The notes under the pieces were generated by a model. That model saw only the letters and a list, made by a program, of their open reading frames with translations, was not told the DNA's origin and ran no database searches. Shown here piece by piece: positions 416-33,786 of a stretch of 35,303 nucleotides of DNA. Made by a program: the position numbers and the translations under genes. The DNA is from a virus, in IMG/VR virus record IMGVR_UViG_3300033149_000088, positions 1-35,303 of that record; one strand, 5' to 3'. Position 1 is the first letter of the stretch, and each line of letters begins with the position of its first letter.

Positions 416-424
416 GATAAATAC
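416..424 (+). promoter_or_regulatory. T4-type late promoter (GATAAATAC), first of a tandem pair
   Basis: GATAAATAC contains ATAAATA, matching the T4 late promoter consensus TATAAATA at seven of eight positions. An ATG follows at once (425) and opens an 18-codon frame, MVPADYRKNLLRSHRDKY, that stops at 479-481, one base before the next gene's ATG. That frame might be a leader peptide coupling translation to the gene at 483, or chance. Confidence 0.55.
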
Positions 425-469
425 ATGGTACCAGCAGACTATCGTAAAAATCTTTTGCGATCCCACAGA

Positions 470-478
470 GATAAATAC
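470..478 (+). promoter_or_regulatory. T4-type late promoter abutting the ATG at 483
   Basis: GATAAATAC is followed by TAGT and then ATG. The same 16-base block GATAAATACTAGTATG recurs exactly at 24813-24828, and nearly so on the minus strand at 33501-33486. The T4 late promoter box sits around -10, so transcription should start at or very near the A of ATG, giving a leaderless or near-leaderless mRNA. No Shine-Dalgarno lies at the usual distance. Confidence 0.65.
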
Positions 479-482
479 TAGT

Positions 483-1115
483 ATGACTAAAGCAATTACA
501 GGCGACAATCTTGCTAGAAAACAAGCAGATGCATTCTTTAAAGACATTGACTTTATCAGTATTGTAGATACCATTAAAAATATCTATATGTCTGACGGTG
601 CAATGAATACGTTATTGGACTTTGAAAGAGTCTTAGACGAAGCAGATATCTATGCATTTAGAAACTGGATTAACGGTGAACTTGTACAAGGACCCGATGT
701 TGGGCGTTACACATGTAAATGTACATTCATGTGGCCTTATAAACTAATGCCTGATCCAAAAGCAACATTAAGACTTGCAACTATCGGTTGTAATGTCAGA
801 ATGATGAAGTCTAAGATTGAAGTTCCTGTAGCAGTCACATCATATGAAGACTTTCAATCAGGAAGTCGTTACCCTAAAATGAAAGAAAACAAAGTTTGGT
901 TTATGCAAATTGAAATACCTTTTGAATTAATGGATGATATTAAAGAAGGTAGTGTTGATATTGCTGAAGACACCATTGACTTATCAGAAATCGAAGATGC
1001 ATATGACAACGATTTAGAGCAAACAAAGTCTGAAGAAGATACAGGTAATGATATGGAAGCAGTTGATGACATGACGCAAGGCGCACCAAATGATGGCGGA
1101 GCATTTCAAATCTAA
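483..1115 (+). CDS. Conserved T4-like marine phage protein, 210 aa, unknown role
   Basis: I place the start at 483 (MTKAITGDNLARKQADAFF) rather than the upstream ATG at 396, because the late promoter at 470-478 lies inside that longer frame. The protein has a mixed alpha/beta body rich in aromatic residues and Cys (CKCTFMWPYKL, IGCNVRMM) and a very acidic C-terminal tail from about residue 160 (DIAEDTIDLSEIEDAYDNDLEQ). I see no catalytic motif. From memory it resembles a conserved unknown near phoH in marine T4-like phages, perhaps a structural or assembly protein. Its stop overlaps the next start (TAATG), so it is co-translated with the gene at 1115. Function not recognised. Confidence 0.8.
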   Translation: MTKAITGDNLARKQADAFFKDIDFISIVDTIKNIYMSDGAMNTLLDFERVLDEADIYAFRNWINGELVQGPDVGRYTCKCTFMWPYKLMPDPKATLRLATIGCNVRMMKSKIEVPVAVTSYEDFQSGSRYPKMKENKVWFMQIEIPFELMDDIKEGSVDIAEDTIDLSEIEDAYDNDLEQTKSEEDTGNDMEAVDDMTQGAPNDGGAFQI

Positions 1116-1679: not shown

Positions 1680-1708
1680 TTGACTTTAACACGTGTGGCT
1701 GTTATAAT
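1680..1708 (+). promoter_or_regulatory. Sigma70-type promoter, leaderless configuration
   Basis: TTGACT (1680-1685), a 17-bp spacer and a perfect TATAAT (1703-1708) form a near-consensus host housekeeping promoter. The ATG of the J-domain gene begins five bases after the -10 box, so initiation about 7 bp downstream would fall at or just inside the start codon. No Shine-Dalgarno is present. This indicates early expression by host RNA polymerase and a leaderless message. Confidence 0.75.
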
Positions 1709-1713
1709 ATAGC

Positions 1714-2532
1714 ATGGACCACTATCAAACATTAGGCGTCTCGCCTCAAGCAGATACAAAAGAGATTAAAAAAGCCTATAGAAAACTGGCTGGGAAACAT
1801 CATCCAGATAAAGGTGGAGACGAAAACGAATTTAAGAAAGTACAAAAAGCATATGAAACTTTAAGTGATCCACAAAAACGTGCTGAGTATGATAATCCTA
1901 ATCCGTTTAATCAAGGCTTTGGTGGTGGCAATCCTTTTGATATAAATGATATCTTTGGAGATATATTCGGTCAAAGACCGCGTCAGCCTCGCAATCAAAG
2001 ACCGATGTTTAGAACACAATTGAATGTTACTTTACGTCAAGCATATACAGGTGGGCAACAGACAATGGAATTGCAAACACCTCAAGGTAAAAAGGTAGTT
2101 ACAGTCAATATCCCTAAAGGAGTAATGACTGGACAACAAACTAAGTACGATAATCTTGTACAACCAAATAGTACAATGGTTGTTGATTTTCATGTAATGC
2201 AAGACGCCTGGTTTGAAAGACACGGTCCACACTTACTATGTACGCATAATATATCTGTATTAGATTTAATTGTAGGTACGAAATTTAAGTTTACAACAAT
2301 AGGCGGTAAAGTAGTTGAAGTAAAAGTAAAAGCAGGCACTGCTCCAAATACACAAATTAAATTAGCAGGGCAAGGTATGCCTGTTGCTGATCCAAGAGGT
2401 CCTAATATAACTTCTGGGCAATTCGGTGACCAATTAATATTGCTTAAAGGAATCATTCCTGATAATATAGAACAAGGTATCATCGATTCTATTATGAAAT
2501 ATAAAGATATACAGGACTTGAAAGACAACTAA
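1714..2532 (+). CDS. DnaJ/CbpA-type J-domain co-chaperone, 272 aa
   Basis: The N-terminal J domain (about residues 1-62) has the HPD tripeptide within HHPDKGG and the typical helix end [20 protein letters not shown] short Gly/Phe-rich linker follows ([24 protein letters not shown]). The rest matches DnaJ C-terminal peptide-binding domains ([39 protein letters not shown]). The Cys4 zinc-finger domain of classical DnaJ is absent, so this is a type II or CbpA-like protein. It should stimulate a host DnaK-type Hsp70 ATPase and deliver substrates. It lies 23 bp upstream of the Clp ATPase, suggesting a phage chaperone module. A sigma70 promoter directly precedes the ATG. Confidence 0.92.
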
Positions 2533-5427: not shown

Positions 5428-7346
5428 TGGCCAACATTGTTATTATGCCTGGTGGTTTTCACCCATTTCATGCAGGGCATGCCGCACTTTATAATTCCAT
5501 AAAACAAAAGTATGGCGAAGGCTCTGACATCTATGTAGCCGCTAGTAACAATCAAAAAGAAAGACCTTTCCCGTTTGAAATCAAAGAAAAATTAGCACAA
5601 CTTTCAGGGGTACAGCCAGGAGAATTTGTACAAGTTAAGTCTCCATTTGTACCTAAAGAAATTACAGACAAATACGATCCAGACAAAGATACAATTGTTT
5701 TTGTACGAAGTGAAAAAGATAAAGATGAGTTTCCAAAACCCGGAGCAGTTAAGAAAGACGGATCACCGGGATACTTTCAACATATAGATCAAGCAAAAAG
5801 AGGTGCACAACCCTTTAGTAAAGTAGGTTACATGGATTACTTACCAGTCAAAGAGTTTGCAGGTATCACTAGTGCTACACAGATACGAGACACTTGGCCT
5901 AGTCTTAACGATGAACAACGAGAAGAATTTATAACTCACATTTATCCTAAACTTGAGGGTAATGATAGATTAATTAAAAATGTAGTTAACTTATTAAGTA
6001 AAGGAATGTCTTTAAATGAAGGCTTAGCATACATTGATAAAGATGGTAACAGAGTTGATTATACAAGACCTGACTTACCCACAGATATTGAAAATTTAGT
6101 CATTGATTGGTTTAATGACAGAGACAAATACACTAAAGCAACGTTACAATCTAAAGGATATAAAGTAGACGTTGATGATAAGTTTAATAACATTGATATT
6201 ACAGACAAAAGAGGTAGAAAATACACCGTGTCTACAGATGATGCAATGTCTAAACTTATACAACAAGCATATGCAGAACCATTAAACGAAGACTCTAATG
6301 ATAAGTTACTTGATACAAAACGTGCAAGAGCAATACTTCAACTTTATACAAGAACAAACGGTTTTGATTTAAGAAAAATCATATCAAGCCGTAAACGTGG
6401 CGGTGCTGATAACGAAAGAATAGTGACAGCAATGCTTATGCCAGACTCTAAGACTTTCAGTAGAGACGATATAGATAATCTTTCCGATGAACTTCAAAGA
6501 AGATTTAGTGTTACAGTTCCTAGAATGACTATTACAGGTAACGGTACTTATCTTAATCTAAATCCTGTTGTAGTTAAAGTTAAAAATATGGATGAAACAT
6601 TTGTAAGTCCAGACGAATCTAAACAGTACTGGAATCATAACCCGCAAAATTATCCATTCGGAGATCAAATAGATATGCCTTTAAGAGATACAGATCGCAA
6701 TGGAAGAAGACAAGGATTTTCAGGTCATGGGGCATGGTCAGTAAATGAAAGTTTCGGTAAGATTCGTAATATGATTAATGATTCTACTGACGAACAAAAA
6801 TCTAAATCAGTTGATTTGCATCGTAAAATGTTTGAACTGTTAGAGAATGAATTCAAACCTAACGTTATTAAACTGCGAGGATTCGGCAGAGAACAAGACA
6901 AAGAAATACCAGACATTAATAAAGTTAGACAAGAAAAAGAAAAAGAAAAACAAAGAAATCAAGTAGAGTACGATAATAAAAGACAACAGCAATATGCATA
7001 CCTAAGAAAGATACAAGAAGTCTTATTTGAATTGCATGAAGAATTCGCAGAGATGGAACAGTTAGGTCTTTTACCTATCGAAATGAAACAAAACTTTGAA
7101 AACGTAAAAGAACTCATAGACTTTGTAGAAAACTACAGTGCTGATGATTATCCTTTTACAGACGATGATGGGAACTTACTTGAAATGCTTCATGTAAAGA
7201 CTGTCAAACTAAAAGAATACTTTGGTGGTTGGAGAGATACACAAGCACCTAGAGTATTAAGAAAACACACTCCTAAACTAGAACCAGACTCCTTCTGGAA
7301 CAAATTTGATTTGTCCGAAACCGCTGATTACATCGAAGAAAAATAA
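5427..7346 (+). CDS. HxGH nucleotidyltransferase-domain protein, 639 aa
   Basis: Residues 1-160 form a cytidylyltransferase/NMNAT-like domain: PGGFHPFHAGH with HAGH at 15-18 is the nucleotide-binding HxGH motif, and ITSATQIRDTW near residue 148 is the second motif (ISSTxIR). Such domains join a nucleotide to a phosphorylated small molecule; the substrate here is unknown. About 480 further residues are unlike any enzyme I know. They include YPFGDQIDMPLRDTDRNGRRQGF-like charged stretches, a helical Lys/Glu/Gln region near 500-560 that could be a coiled coil, and LNE tripeptides at about 197 and 288. It may be a phage fusion of catalytic head and structural tail. It starts within the preceding stop codon. 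Confidence 0.85.
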   Translation: MANIVIMPGGFHPFHAGHAALYNSIKQKYGEGSDIYVAASNNQKERPFPFEIKEKLAQLSGVQPGEFVQVKSPFVPKEITDKYDPDKDTIVFVRSEKDKDEFPKPGAVKKDGSPGYFQHIDQAKRGAQPFSKVGYMDYLPVKEFAGITSATQIRDTWPSLNDEQREEFITHIYPKLEGNDRLIKNVVNLLSKGMSLNEGLAYIDKDGNRVDYTRPDLPTDIENLVIDWFNDRDKYTKATLQSKGYKVDVDDKFNNIDITDKRGRKYTVSTDDAMSKLIQQAYAEPLNEDSNDKLLDTKRARAILQLYTRTNGFDLRKIISSRKRGGADNERIVTAMLMPDSKTFSRDDIDNLSDELQRRFSVTVPRMTITGNGTYLNLNPVVVKVKNMDETFVSPDESKQYWNHNPQNYPFGDQIDMPLRDTDRNGRRQGFSGHGAWSVNESFGKIRNMINDSTDEQKSKSVDLHRKMFELLENEFKPNVIKLRGFGREQDKEIPDINKVRQEKEKEKQRNQVEYDNKRQQQYAYLRKIQEVLFELHEEFAEMEQLGLLPIEMKQNFENVKELIDFVENYSADDYPFTDDDGNLLEMLHVKTVKLKEYFGGWRDTQAPRVLRKHTPKLEPDSFWNKFDLSETADYIEEK

Positions 7347-8483: not shown

Positions 8484-8492
8484 GATAAATAC
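8484..8492 (+). promoter_or_regulatory. Late promoter (GATAAATAC) for the gene at 8518
   Basis: GATAAATAC lies 25 bp before the ATG at 8518 and just after the terminator, so it starts a new unit. An AAAGGA Shine-Dalgarno (about 8502-8507) lies between. This site has a leader, in contrast to those at 470, 24813 and 33501. Confidence 0.7.
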
Positions 8493-8517
8493 TTATATTA
8501 ACAAAGGATTGATATCA

Positions 8518-9591
8518 ATGAAGTTCAATGAAATAACCGAAAATGCATCAGCGGGTGCTACAGGCGCAGGATCAGTTGCATCTGTGAATATGCCAATGAG
8601 TACTCAATCACGCAATCCTAGCATTTATGGTGGCAAAAAGGCTGGAAACTTACTGACAGGTAAAAAATCAAAGGGCAAATATGCTAATTCTGTCCAAGCA
8701 CGTAAGCAAACTAAAGTCAACGAATCTCAACAATTAAACGAAGTGGCTCCTCTAGTCCTTAATGGAATAAGACTAGTTGCTCCTTATGCTATAAAAGGGG
8801 CCAAACATCTTTGGAAGCATAAAAAGAAAGCCGCAGGTGCTGGTGTAGTAACTGACGTTGTGGTAAACGATGGGGAGGCTACATTAGGGGCCGCGAAAGA
8901 GGTCGCAAATTGGCTTTTGGATGTAGATGCTGATGAATCTTTACTTGTAGAGATAGCCAAAAAGATTTTAGAAGTAGCAAAAAAGTTTCCATGGGCAACG
9001 GCAGCCATTGTTGCGTTCTATGGTGGTAAAGCGGCTTGGGAATATTATCTCGACCGACAAGAAGATTTAGAACAAAAAGAACGAGATGAATTAATGCGTT
9101 TACAAGCACGTACACTTGAAAGAATTTCTAAGCAACTAGAAGTACAACCTGTAACAGAAGACGAAGTATCAGAAGCAGAAGTTCTTGTAGTCAAAGGTGC
9201 AAACAGAAAAGATCGCAGGTCTGGATTTGTTAAACACGGTGAAAGCAGAGTAGACCATGAAGTTAAAATGGCAAAAGCAGATTTATTTGCAACAGCAAAA
9301 AATGCACAAGAAATTATGATGCTACTTAAAGACAGAACTGAAGAAGAAGGGATCAAAGGTTGGATGCAATCTTATATTACATTAGCAAATGATTACCTTA
9401 ATTCAGTTGCAGAATCATTACAGTATGAAATGCAAATGCATGAAGATCAACCCGCAACTTACGGCAACGGAGAAGATGACAGATATCACGTAAGTAAATT
9501 AGACACAGAGCCATATGGTGAGCCCAGTTCAAGTTACCCAGGAGGTACGTTGACAGGTACAAACTTGGCAGAAGATGGAGACAAACAATGA
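8518..9591 (+). CDS. Putative capsid-targeted internal protein, 357 aa
   Basis: I start at 8518 (MKFNEITENASAGATG), because the longer upstream frame would begin inside the terminator. The N-terminus has an ITE tripeptide at 6-8, like the T4 prohead-protease site (L/I)xE, followed by an Ala/Gly-rich stretch. A second candidate site, QLNE, occurs near residue 80. Residues 28-70 are very basic (GGKKAGNLLTGKKSKGKYANS). One or two hydrophobic segments follow (about 83-95, and FPWATAAIVAFYGG near 160-173), then a charged coiled-coil-like region. This fits an internal head protein with a membrane-active segment, but no homologous function is known to me. Stop overlaps the next start. Confidence 0.75.
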   Translation: MKFNEITENASAGATGAGSVASVNMPMSTQSRNPSIYGGKKAGNLLTGKKSKGKYANSVQARKQTKVNESQQLNEVAPLVLNGIRLVAPYAIKGAKHLWKHKKKAAGAGVVTDVVVNDGEATLGAAKEVANWLLDVDADESLLVEIAKKILEVAKKFPWATAAIVAFYGGKAAWEYYLDRQEDLEQKERDELMRLQARTLERISKQLEVQPVTEDEVSEAEVLVVKGANRKDRRSGFVKHGESRVDHEVKMAKADLFATAKNAQEIMMLLKDRTEEEGIKGWMQSYITLANDYLNSVAESLQYEMQMHEDQPATYGNGEDDRYHVSKLDTEPYGEPSSSYPGGTLTGTNLAEDGDKQ

Positions 9592-24812: not shown

Positions 24813-24821
24813 GATAAATAC
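24813..24821 (+). promoter_or_regulatory. Late promoter (GATAAATAC) abutting the ATG at 24826
   Basis: GATAAATACTAGTATG is identical over 16 bases to the block at 470-485. The promoter box ends four bases before ATG and no Shine-Dalgarno is present, predicting a leaderless late mRNA. Confidence 0.7.
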
Positions 24822-24825
24822 TAGT

Positions 24826-26190
24826 ATGGACAAATATAAATTAACTGCAGGACTAAACTATTTGAAAGAAAACTCATACAAAGGTGACGGTTCACCTGGT
24901 ATGGTGATGGGTATTGCAAGTGATGCTCGTAGTGATACTAACACATATGAAGGTAAGGGCGTTAATAGAGGCCCTACAACTAATAGTAAGCATAGTACTG
25001 AAAGAGAATTAAAAAAGTACGATCCAGCACATGGTCATACAAAACCAGTAGGGGGCAATCCTCAAGTATGTCCTAATTGTAAGGGAGAAGGCTGTGAGCC
25101 TTGTGGGAACACAGGAGAAGTCATCAGCAAAAAACGTAATGATCCTAAAGTCGATGAAGGCTTCCCAGACTATAAGATGATGACTCGTGGTTATGACCAT
25201 AACGATAAGACTTGTCCTGTATGTAAGGGCAGTGGTAATGAAAAATCATACGATGGGTTGAATAACAAACCGGGACACGTTTACATTCAAAAGCCAAAAC
25301 CAAAATGTCCAAGATGTAACGGCACAGGTAAGAAGATCGAAGAAGGCGCTATTAGTAGACAACGTGATGAACTTATAGATGAATTACAATCTTGGACTCA
25401 ATCCAGAGATATTAACGAATTTGAAGACTGGAATGCATATTTAGAAGACTTACGTAACCAAGTACCTAGTAGTTATTATGGTGATACTGCAAAAATGTTA
25501 GAAAAAGTTGTTTGGGGTATTGATGATGGAGTATTTGATTTTATCATTGCTAATAGAGATCCAGATGACGGTGATGTATTTGAAGACATTATGAGACTTG
25601 CTGGTGTCAAAGAAGCATTTGCTTGGGATAGTATCGAAGAAGCAAAACGTAAGCCAAGACATGATGACGATGATGAAGAAGACGAAGAAGAACCAGAAGA
25701 TCCTGAAAAAGATAAAGTACAACACATCTTAATGCAATTAAGAAAAGCACAAGATGTAGACGGCGATCATCCAATTAAATTTTTAGATGGTACAAAAGTT
25801 AAACTACCATTGAACGACATTAATAAGTTTATGCAAATGTACATGAATGTCAAGCCACAAGATAGAGAAAGATTACAACAAGTGGCTATTATGAGCAAAG
25901 ATAAGTTTTATAAACTCTTAACATTCTTTAAACCTAAACACGGTAAGATGGAAAAAAGTATTTACGAAGATGGCATACCATTCAATACATGTCCTAAATG
26001 CTTAAATGAAATTTATTCACTAGAAGAAGCAAAAAAGAAAGGGAAGAAAGACGCCTGTTATCACAAAGTCAAGTCCAGATATAAAATATGGCCTAGTGCA
26101 TATGCATCTGGTGCTTTAGTTAAGTGTCGTAAAGTCGGCGCTAGTAACTGGGGCAACTCCTCCAAAAAGAAAAAGTCTAAAAAGAAATAA
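24826..26190 (+). CDS. Protein with DnaJ-type zinc fingers and basic C-terminal module, 454 aa
   Basis: Three CxxCxGxG-like half fingers occur: CPNCKGEGCEPCGNTG (about 82-97), CPVCKGSG (about 131) and CPRCNGTG (about 162). They are as in the DnaJ zinc domain, but there is no J domain. A helical region follows, then an acidic run of Asp/Glu (about 283-298). Near residue 385 is a CPKC pair, and the C-terminus has DACYHKVKSRYKIWPSAYAS followed by GALVKCRKVG and a poly-Lys end. That last module is, from memory, a recurring C-terminal cap in marine phage proteins. YLKE at 12-15 is a weak prohead-protease candidate. A late virion-associated role is inferred. Stop overlaps the next start. Confidence 0.75.
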   Translation: MDKYKLTAGLNYLKENSYKGDGSPGMVMGIASDARSDTNTYEGKGVNRGPTTNSKHSTERELKKYDPAHGHTKPVGGNPQVCPNCKGEGCEPCGNTGEVISKKRNDPKVDEGFPDYKMMTRGYDHNDKTCPVCKGSGNEKSYDGLNNKPGHVYIQKPKPKCPRCNGTGKKIEEGAISRQRDELIDELQSWTQSRDINEFEDWNAYLEDLRNQVPSSYYGDTAKMLEKVVWGIDDGVFDFIIANRDPDDGDVFEDIMRLAGVKEAFAWDSIEEAKRKPRHDDDDEEDEEEPEDPEKDKVQHILMQLRKAQDVDGDHPIKFLDGTKVKLPLNDINKFMQMYMNVKPQDRERLQQVAIMSKDKFYKLLTFFKPKHGKMEKSIYEDGIPFNTCPKCLNEIYSLEEAKKKGKKDACYHKVKSRYKIWPSAYASGALVKCRKVGASNWGNSSKKKKSKKK

Positions 26191-28119: not shown

Positions 28120-28174
28120 TATTAGTGAGTAAAATCACTACTGATATCAGAACAACTTAATTAAGGAGAGTAAT

Positions 28175-32758: not shown

Positions 32759-32977
32759 GTTGACATCCTTGCAGATTTCTTTTGCAAGATCACTACCAGT
32801 TGTAACAAACAAAAACGGAAAGAACGCATGTATGATAACAGCAAAGCCTGTTAATAGCATACTTACACCATAGTACAATGCACAACTTAAATGTTCCGTG
32901 TATGTTTCACCCAAAGAGTGCGGATGTTCTGTAAATTTGTTTCGGAGTTTATTGAAAAATGTGATGATTTTGCTCAC
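32744..32977 (-). CDS. DUF6356-like small membrane protein, about 77 aa
   Basis: The frame has FTEHPHSLGETYTEHLSCAL followed by hydrophobic YYGVSMLLTGFAVIIHAFFP and FLFVTTGS. The TxHPxSxGExYxEH motif then HA(x)nPF is the DUF6356 signature I recall, a family of short membrane proteins with one or two helices. I place the start at a GTG (VSKIITFFNKL) at 32977; an ATG at 33010 would overlap the upstream metallopeptidase more. It is probably translated after the metallopeptidase on the same minus-strand message. Role unknown. Confidence 0.7.
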   Translation of the reverse strand: MSKIITFFNKLRNKFTEHPHSLGETYTEHLSCALYYGVSMLLTGFAVIIHAFFPFLFVTTGSDLAKEICKDVNKREL

Positions 32978-33488
32978 CGTATATTTTGATATACTTACCA
33001 GCAATTTCATCTGCTTCCATCTCAATAGGAGAACCAGGATAACTTGAACCAGGTGTTATCTCACCTTTTTCTCCTTGTCGAATATGAACAAGTTCATGGA
33101 ATACTGTTCTAAGAATATCAACTAAGTTTCTGTTGCCATAGACCCAAATTTCATCTGATCCTAATTCGTGTCTACCTGTATGATGCCCGTCTTGTGCTTC
33201 TTCAGTATCGTAACTTAACTTTACTTTAGGCATATCTTTAACTTTTAAAACATCTCCCATCCAATGTGCCGCTTTTGTTACTTCATCTTCAATGTTTAAA
33301 CCATCAGTAAACATTTGATCAGATGCAGTTAATTCTTCTCTTGCTTTGTGTGCTTGTTTGGCAGCCTGCTTGGCGCTACGATAAATTTTACCTTTTTCGT
33401 CTACGTTATATTGATCACTCTTAATCTTGGGAAGTCTATTTTCCAAGTCTTTAAGCGGTGTTTCGTTAATAAATTGATGGGCTCTCAT
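32949..33488 (-). CDS. Zinc metallopeptidase with capsid-targeting-like N-terminus, 179 aa
   Basis: I start at 33488 (MRAHQFINETPLKDLENRLP), since a late promoter lies directly upstream, inside the longer frame. QFINE at 5-9 fits the (L/I)xE prohead-protease tag. VFHELVHIRQGEKG has HExxH at 131-135, with Glu in PIEMEADEIAG (156-161) as the likely third ligand, an ImmA/IrrE- or SprT-like zincin arrangement. The region 38-60 is basic. It lies antisense between rightward units. A packaged protease could attack host proteins early; alternatively it cleaves virion or repressor proteins. Confidence 0.8.
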   Translation of the reverse strand: MRAHQFINETPLKDLENRLPKIKSDQYNVDEKGKIYRSAKQAAKQAHKAREELTASDQMFTDGLNIEDEVTKAAHWMGDVLKVKDMPKVKLSYDTEEAQDGHHTGRHELGSDEIWVYGNRNLVDILRTVFHELVHIRQGEKGEITPGSSYPGSPIEMEADEIAGKYIKIYGEQNHHIFQ

Positions 33489-33493
33489 ACTAT

Positions 33494-33501
33494 TATTTAT
33501 C
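33494..33501 (-). promoter_or_regulatory. Late promoter (GATAAATA) abutting the metallopeptidase ATG
   Basis: On the minus strand the order is GATAAATAATAGTATG, matching the composite at 470 and 24813 with C changed to A. The ATG begins five bases after the box and no Shine-Dalgarno is seen. Confidence 0.65.
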
Positions 33502-33528
33502 AAAAATTGACTTTGGGAAATGTTTTGC

Positions 33529-33557
33529 TTGACTCTAATCGCATTAAATATTACAAT
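33529..33557 (+). promoter_or_regulatory. Sigma70-type early promoter, leaderless configuration
   Basis: TTGACT (33529-33534), a 17-bp spacer and TACAAT (33552-33557) closely match host sigma70. The ATG at 33565 is seven bases after the -10, so transcription would begin at about 33564. No Shine-Dalgarno. It faces away from the late promoter of the metallopeptidase. Confidence 0.75.
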
Positions 33558-33564
33558 AGAACAC

Positions 33565-33786
33565 ATGATATTACCTGAAGTAGAAAAAGCACTACATATC
33601 ATTTGGGAACTAGAGTATGAAATGTTGAATGAAAGAAACTGTGGTTACACGGGTTCAGACATGAAAAAGAAACTCTGGGAAATCAAAATGAGAGTAGATA
33701 AAGCAATTGCCAAGGCTCCAGTCTATCATGGTGACCCGAATTACGAACAAGAATATCTTGTAGCAAAAATTAAAGGCGAAGTATGA
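33565..33786 (+). CDS. Small conserved early protein, 73 aa
   Basis: I start at 33565 (MILPEVEKALHIIWELEYEM) because the sigma70 promoter lies within any longer frame. The protein is helical and charged (LNERNCGYTGSDMKKKLWEI, KMRVDKAIAKAPVYHG). No motif recognised. Its end overlaps the dehydrogenase start (ATGA), so both are on one early message. Function unknown. Confidence 0.75.
   Translation: MILPEVEKALHIIWELEYEMLNERNCGYTGSDMKKKLWEIKMRVDKAIAKAPVYHGDPNYEQEYLVAKIKGEV

Follow-up and report, generated by a model that had tools for sequence, protein, structure and literature searches.

The window analysed here (the whole stretch of 35,303 nt) contains three sites at which a box of the T4 late promoter type, NATAAATA, ends 4–5 nt 5' of an ATG start codon (boxes at 470, 24813 and, on the minus strand, 33501). 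These composites are very probably gp55-type late promoters that start transcription at the A of the ATG or 1–3 nt before it, giving leaderless mRNAs that are translated independently of a Shine-Dalgarno (SD) sequence. The box and its spacing, their conservation, the lack of an SD, a deficit of box-to-ATG distances of 9–14 nt and the replacement of this layout by an SD-bearing leader in orthologs are all observed; leaderless transcription itself is inferred, with RNA 5' ends unmeasured. In the proposed mechanism, the start directed by the late promoter would coincide with the start-codon A or lie 1–3 nt 5' of it, and the resulting AUG-first messages would be initiated by 70S ribosomes. Initiation by 70S ribosomes on AUG-first messages is established for other leaderless mRNAs. 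The leaderless class would coexist with ordinary leadered genes and would also be served by sigma70-type promoters.

The 16-base block GATAAATACTAGTATG occurs on the plus strand at 470–485 and 24813–24828, and its variant GATAAATAATAGTATG on the minus strand at 33501–33486. The initial annotation had reported two identical blocks and a one-base minus-strand variant; this description is exact, and the three are the only matches in the window with two or fewer mismatches, where shuffled sequences predict 0.03. The related sequence GATAAATAC is present eight times, on the plus strand only (0.67 expected). A chance origin of the composites was ruled out by the shuffle counts and by the heptamer comparison given below, and an origin of the box as a by-product of protein coding (DKY or INT peptides) was rejected because the box occurs in different frames. 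None of the three composite ATGs in the window (483, 24826 and 33488) has an SD, while the genes starting at 8518 and 28175 possess both a leader and an SD (AAAGGA and AAGGAG, respectively), so that both statements of the initial annotation hold. The protein encoded at 32949–33488 contains the motif HELVH and was judged, by eye only, to be zinc-peptidase-like. No Rfam families or tRNAs were found in the window. The relevant features are as follows.

416..423, plus strand: second GATAAATA box, 54 bp 5' of the box at 470; a leader starting there would lack an SD
425..481, plus strand: short frame from ATG to TAG, stopping one base 5' of ATG 483; not conserved among relatives
470..477, plus strand: late-promoter box GATAAATA, 5 nt (CTAGT) from ATG 483; kept in ~50 relatives
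483..1115, plus strand: phrog_12928 virion structural protein gene, 210 aa, predicted leaderless and without an SD
8484..8520, plus strand: contrast case, late box followed by a leader with AAAGGA (8503–8508) and ATG 8518
24813..24820, plus strand: late-promoter box GATAAATA, 5 nt from ATG 24826
24826..26190, plus strand: 454-aa gene, predicted leaderless; layout also found in G015, G016 and L235
28111..28177, plus strand: contrast case, late box followed by a long leader with AAGGAG (28163–28168) and ATG 28175
33494..33501, minus strand: late-promoter box GATAAATA, 5 nt (ATAGT) from ATG 33488
32949..33488, minus strand: 179-aa gene, predicted leaderless

When the composite was counted in related phages, as the initial annotation had suggested, it proved to be kept at the 483 gene in ~50 divergent, non-redundant relatives, down to ~57% protein identity. 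In 51 non-redundant loci the box lies 4–5 nt (once 7 nt) from the ATG corresponding to 483, the sole exception being L047, which carries a box variant with one base changed. Among these loci neither the bases separating box and ATG nor the frame of the box relative to the gene is constant. The same layout is kept in all eight distinct relatives of the gene starting at 33488.

The class extends well beyond the window. Spacings between the end of NATAAATA and the first ATG that begins a frame of 80 or more codons were pooled from six clade contigs, some of them close relatives of each other, and the window. Their distribution is bimodal, with 85 genes at 3–8 nt (the near class), 118 at 15–26 nt (the far class) and only 6 at 9–14 nt. 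An SD of at least four bases is present in 84 of the 118 far-class genes (71%) versus 12 of the 85 near-class genes (14%), the latter count including bases 5' of +1. Three genomes of 335–364 kb carry 15–27 near-spaced genes apiece. Among heptamers of the same base composition (A5T2), ATAAATA precedes an ATG at 4–5 nt in 46 cases, TAAATAA, matches to which can overlap the ATAAATA motif, in 15, and each of the others in 0–5. The box is strand-biased and lies 5' of late genes, like a T4-type late promoter, and its commonest first base in the leadered genes of the clade is G. No conserved −35 element was detected, there being no information content 5' of the box in either class. Divergent upstream neighbours are found at 35% of near-class genes versus 15% of all genes, an excess expected of promoters. 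The use of ATG, GTG and TTG start codons does not distinguish the near class (46/3/1) from the far class (66/4/2). Genes with the leaderless layout include those for a portal protein (phrog_213), virion structural proteins (phrog_11591, phrog_12928 and phrog_13484), a baseplate-wedge-like protein and a superoxide-dismutase-like protein.

The T4 late box occupies positions −13 to −6 (PMC1524935), which makes +1 the sixth base past the box, that is, the A of the ATG at a spacing of 5 nt; with a spacing of 4 nt, transcription would have to begin one base closer to the box than it does in T4. This start site is an inference from T4 geometry, as RNA 5' ends have not been mapped. At a spacing of 5 nt, 39 of 46 genes have a pyrimidine immediately 5' of the ATG, whereas 44 of 115 leadered genes have one at the equivalent promoter position (p = 7e-8); this is the pattern expected of a transcription start at the A of the ATG. 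The absent distances of 9–14 nt correspond to leaders of ~4–9 nt. Mapped leaders in Lactococcus cremoris are likewise either shorter than 5 nt or longer than 14 nt, with none between, and leaders of the missing lengths were suggested to impede initiation (PMC10986495).

Orthologous genes provide a direct comparison of the two arrangements. Among distinct upstream regions of the phrog_11591 gene (MPRLSL...), none of the 44 leaderless ones has an SD and all five leadered ones do. Leaderless and leadered relatives of one gene have ACGATAAATAAAGAT in common, the leadered ones having 11 additional bases, AGGAGAATAGT, from +1. The upstream sequence CGATAAATAAAGAT of the phrog_11591 gene is common to the leadered L419, L426 and L428 and to L422, L423, L424, L425 and L427; it is followed by AGGAGAATAGT and then ATG in the first three and directly by ATG in the other five. 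Regions of the L423 type read GATAAATAAAGAT-ATG and those of the L426 type GATAAATAAAGAT-AGGAGAATAGT-ATG, and the two types diverge precisely at the predicted +1. Further sets of orthologs are similarly mixed; the Paride homolog of the 483 gene has the box, 23 nt and GGAT.

A cultured phage, the T4-type Ca. Pelagibacter phage HTVC008M, has 12 near-spaced ATGs, and all 12 are annotated CDS starts. They lie at 6280, 7562, 16007 (minus strand), 18916 (minus strand), 19456, 31132, 49760, 59714, 75559, 109429, 117049 and 142360. The genes concerned include those for the tail tube cap, baseplate wedge, tape measure, DNA end protector and head-tail adaptor, and among IMG/VR relatives of the tail tube cap gene the layout is kept in 20 of 20 distinct upstream regions. 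Near-spaced genes number zero in Syn9 and two in Paride, and pattern counts gave no excess in RaK2, CBB, 121Q, Atu_ph07, Phosso, SCTP-2, S-PM2, P-SSM2, KVP40 or Vibrio phage 2.275.O.

Composite conservation, the bimodal spacing, the near-class lack of SD, the ortholog pairs and the HTVC008M starts together support the proposal of the initial annotation that leaderless placement forms a regular class. The class is not confined to late promoters: sigma70-type promoters show the leaderless layout as well, including two in the window.

1680..1708, plus strand: sigma70-type promoter TTGACT-17-TATAAT, ending 5 nt from ATG 1714
1714..2532, plus strand: DnaJ-like gene, 272 aa, predicted leaderless from the sigma70-type promoter
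33529..33557, plus strand: sigma70-type promoter TTGACT-17-TACAAT, ending 7 nt from ATG 33565; divergent from the minus-strand late promoter at 33501
33565..33786, plus strand: 73-aa gene, predicted near-leaderless

The layout at 1714, with the promoter ending 5–6 nt from the ATG, is found in nearly all of 39 relatives, to ~45% protein identity, and leaderless expression of an early type is predicted for the DnaJ-like gene. Among TTGAC-17-TATAAT promoters of the clade, 27 have an ATG at 4–10 nt, 4 of them with an SD, versus 79 whose ATG lies at least 19 nt away, 65 of them with an SD. As these promoters split in the same manner, leaderless expression appears to be a property of the phage group rather than of its late sigma factor. 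The stretch 33494–33565 forms a compact divergent pair, with a gp55-type late promoter on the minus strand and a sigma70-type promoter on the plus strand, each abutting a start codon, and the two ATGs ~75 bp apart. This pair is kept in most relatives; in L330 the plus side has an SD-bearing leader (AGGAG). A further promoter-like element, GTTGACTTC...TATAAATA, lies 6 nt before the ATG in a family of ~92-aa proteins (MRYLLIQYIRKPNGQIDE...; L009:8467, L012:7696 and similar), with an unusually short spacer between its −35-like and −10-like parts.

The main alternative is that messages start farther 5' and that the A/U-rich GAUAAAUA beside the AUG serves, at the RNA level, as a ribosome-binding element other than an SD. 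Many near-class genes do lie close behind a co-directional gene, and at the 483 gene nearly all relatives have an upstream second box, 50–65 bp away (twice ~90 bp). This second box, at 416–423 in the window and at the corresponding place in L009–L088, lies ~54 bp 5' of the composite and may add a leadered message for the 483 gene. Few other near-class genes have tandem boxes, however (4 of 77), and transcription starting at the AUG is consistent with both the 9–14 nt gap and the −1 pyrimidine. The late box of the composites is also found at 15–26 nt, together with an SD, in other genes as well as in orthologs, which shows that it is not tied to the AUG, and an RNA element of this kind is considered unlikely.

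Two further alternatives carry much less weight. The initial annotation had offered reinitiation after a short upstream frame as a means of translating the 483 gene, and the frame 425–481 does exist in the window, with TAG-T-ATG recurring among the closest relatives. The frame is not conserved, however: in close relatives the upstream box reads GATAAATACTAGC and the ATG at 425 is missing, and distant relatives lack the TAG-T-ATG coupling yet keep the box and its spacing, leaving reinitiation highly improbable. It is equally hard to credit that the abutting ATGs are incidental and that the true starts lie elsewhere, at a downstream ATG with an SD or in an upstream open frame. Starts in the window are predictions, and the frame of the 483 gene is open 5' to 396 (396–1115), so that ATG 483 is not forced by the window alone. 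A start at 483 is nonetheless supported by comparison with relatives, in which the matching ATG often follows in-frame stops and codons further 5' are not conserved. More generally, the near-class ATG is the first of its frame in 74 of 85 cases, against 25% for random ATGs, and an in-frame ATG with an SD of at least five bases within 25 codons is similarly infrequent in the near (3 of 80) and far (5 of 111) classes. Differences between leaderless phages at codons 2–6 of the phrog_11591 gene are synonymous, indicating that translation begins at the abutting ATG, and the HTVC008M starts were annotated independently. Leaderless transcription from the abutting promoters thus remains the preferred explanation.

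The GenBank relatives of the 483 gene are jumbo myophages (Paride, PA5oct, RaK2, 121Q, GAP32, CBB, Atu_ph07, Phosso and SCTP-2), and its close relatives are uncultivated environmental contigs of up to 364 kb. A comparison with genome contigs gave a single match, to a Burkholderiaceae MAG contig, covering only 39 residues, from which no host is inferred. The phage groups with the PA5oct/Paride, RaK2 and Atu_ph07 jumbo myophages and is not close to T4, so that the term "T4-like" used in the initial annotation suits the promoter system but is loose as taxonomy. A gp55-like late sigma factor (phrog_12791) is encoded by six of the seven clade contigs of at least 240 kb, with no match in G007 (335 kb); the window, a 35-kb fragment, does not itself contain the gene. 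A search for gp45 (phrog_223) matched T4 only and none of the clade, and activation may therefore differ from that in T4. Phage-encoded bS21 was considered as an enabling factor and rejected, being found in leaderless and non-leaderless phages alike; its gene is present in G007, G009, G010, G013, G015 and HTVC008M (91237–91392), and also in Paride, Atu_ph07 and SCTP-2. IF3 disfavours leaderless initiation in E. coli. An IF3 homolog is present in 121Q, RaK2 and Atu_ph07 and was found in none of 10 clade records and not in HTVC008M, Paride, T4 or SCTP-2; these phages are too few for a claim to be made from the pattern.

In the textbook picture of T4-type late transcription, the late mRNAs have leaders with ribosome-binding sites. 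The composites resemble T4 late promoters (gp55/gp33/gp45; PMC2988020, PMC1524935) in having the same 8-bp box and no −35 element, and relatives of the window phage have a gene for a gp55-like factor; they differ in that T4 has no late box 3–8 nt before a start codon, its late genes having leaders with an SD. The related jumbo phages CBB and GAP32 share the ATAAATA late motif and a gp55-like sigma factor, and gp45 and gp33 were undetected there (PMC5259590), as gp45 is in this clade, but CBB, RaK2 and 121Q show no excess of boxes 4–5 nt from an ATG. The classic leaderless message is that of lambda cI (PMC9031893). The lytic Thermus phage phiYS40 offers a parallel for leaderless genes as a regular class, in that most of its middle and late messages have no leaders (PMC3594737); there the RNA was mapped, the host phylum is rich in leaderless genes and the promoters are not of T4 type. 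Promoter −10 elements abut genes in Deinococcus-Thermus (PMC12340547), but there, as in L. cremoris, these are cellular genes served by cellular sigma factors. No description of leaderless late genes in T4-type phages was found in the literature searched, although such papers may exist beyond it.

It is likely that this lineage runs both SD-leadered and leaderless modes from its sigma70-type and gp55-type promoters, with genes passing from one to the other when an SD-bearing segment is gained or lost exactly at +1. In a second branch of the T4-type phages the same design is seen in HTVC008M, and the layout may explain why a survey of pelagimyophages was unable to predict late promoters (PMC7029224). 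The natural leaderless and leadered pairs are usable for testing translation initiation, and gene finders should accept SD-less starts adjoining a promoter. If the interpretation is correct, core virion proteins, including those of the portal, virion and baseplate-like genes, would be translated independently of SD sequences, and the hosts of these phages, including SAR11, are predicted to translate leaderless messages well.
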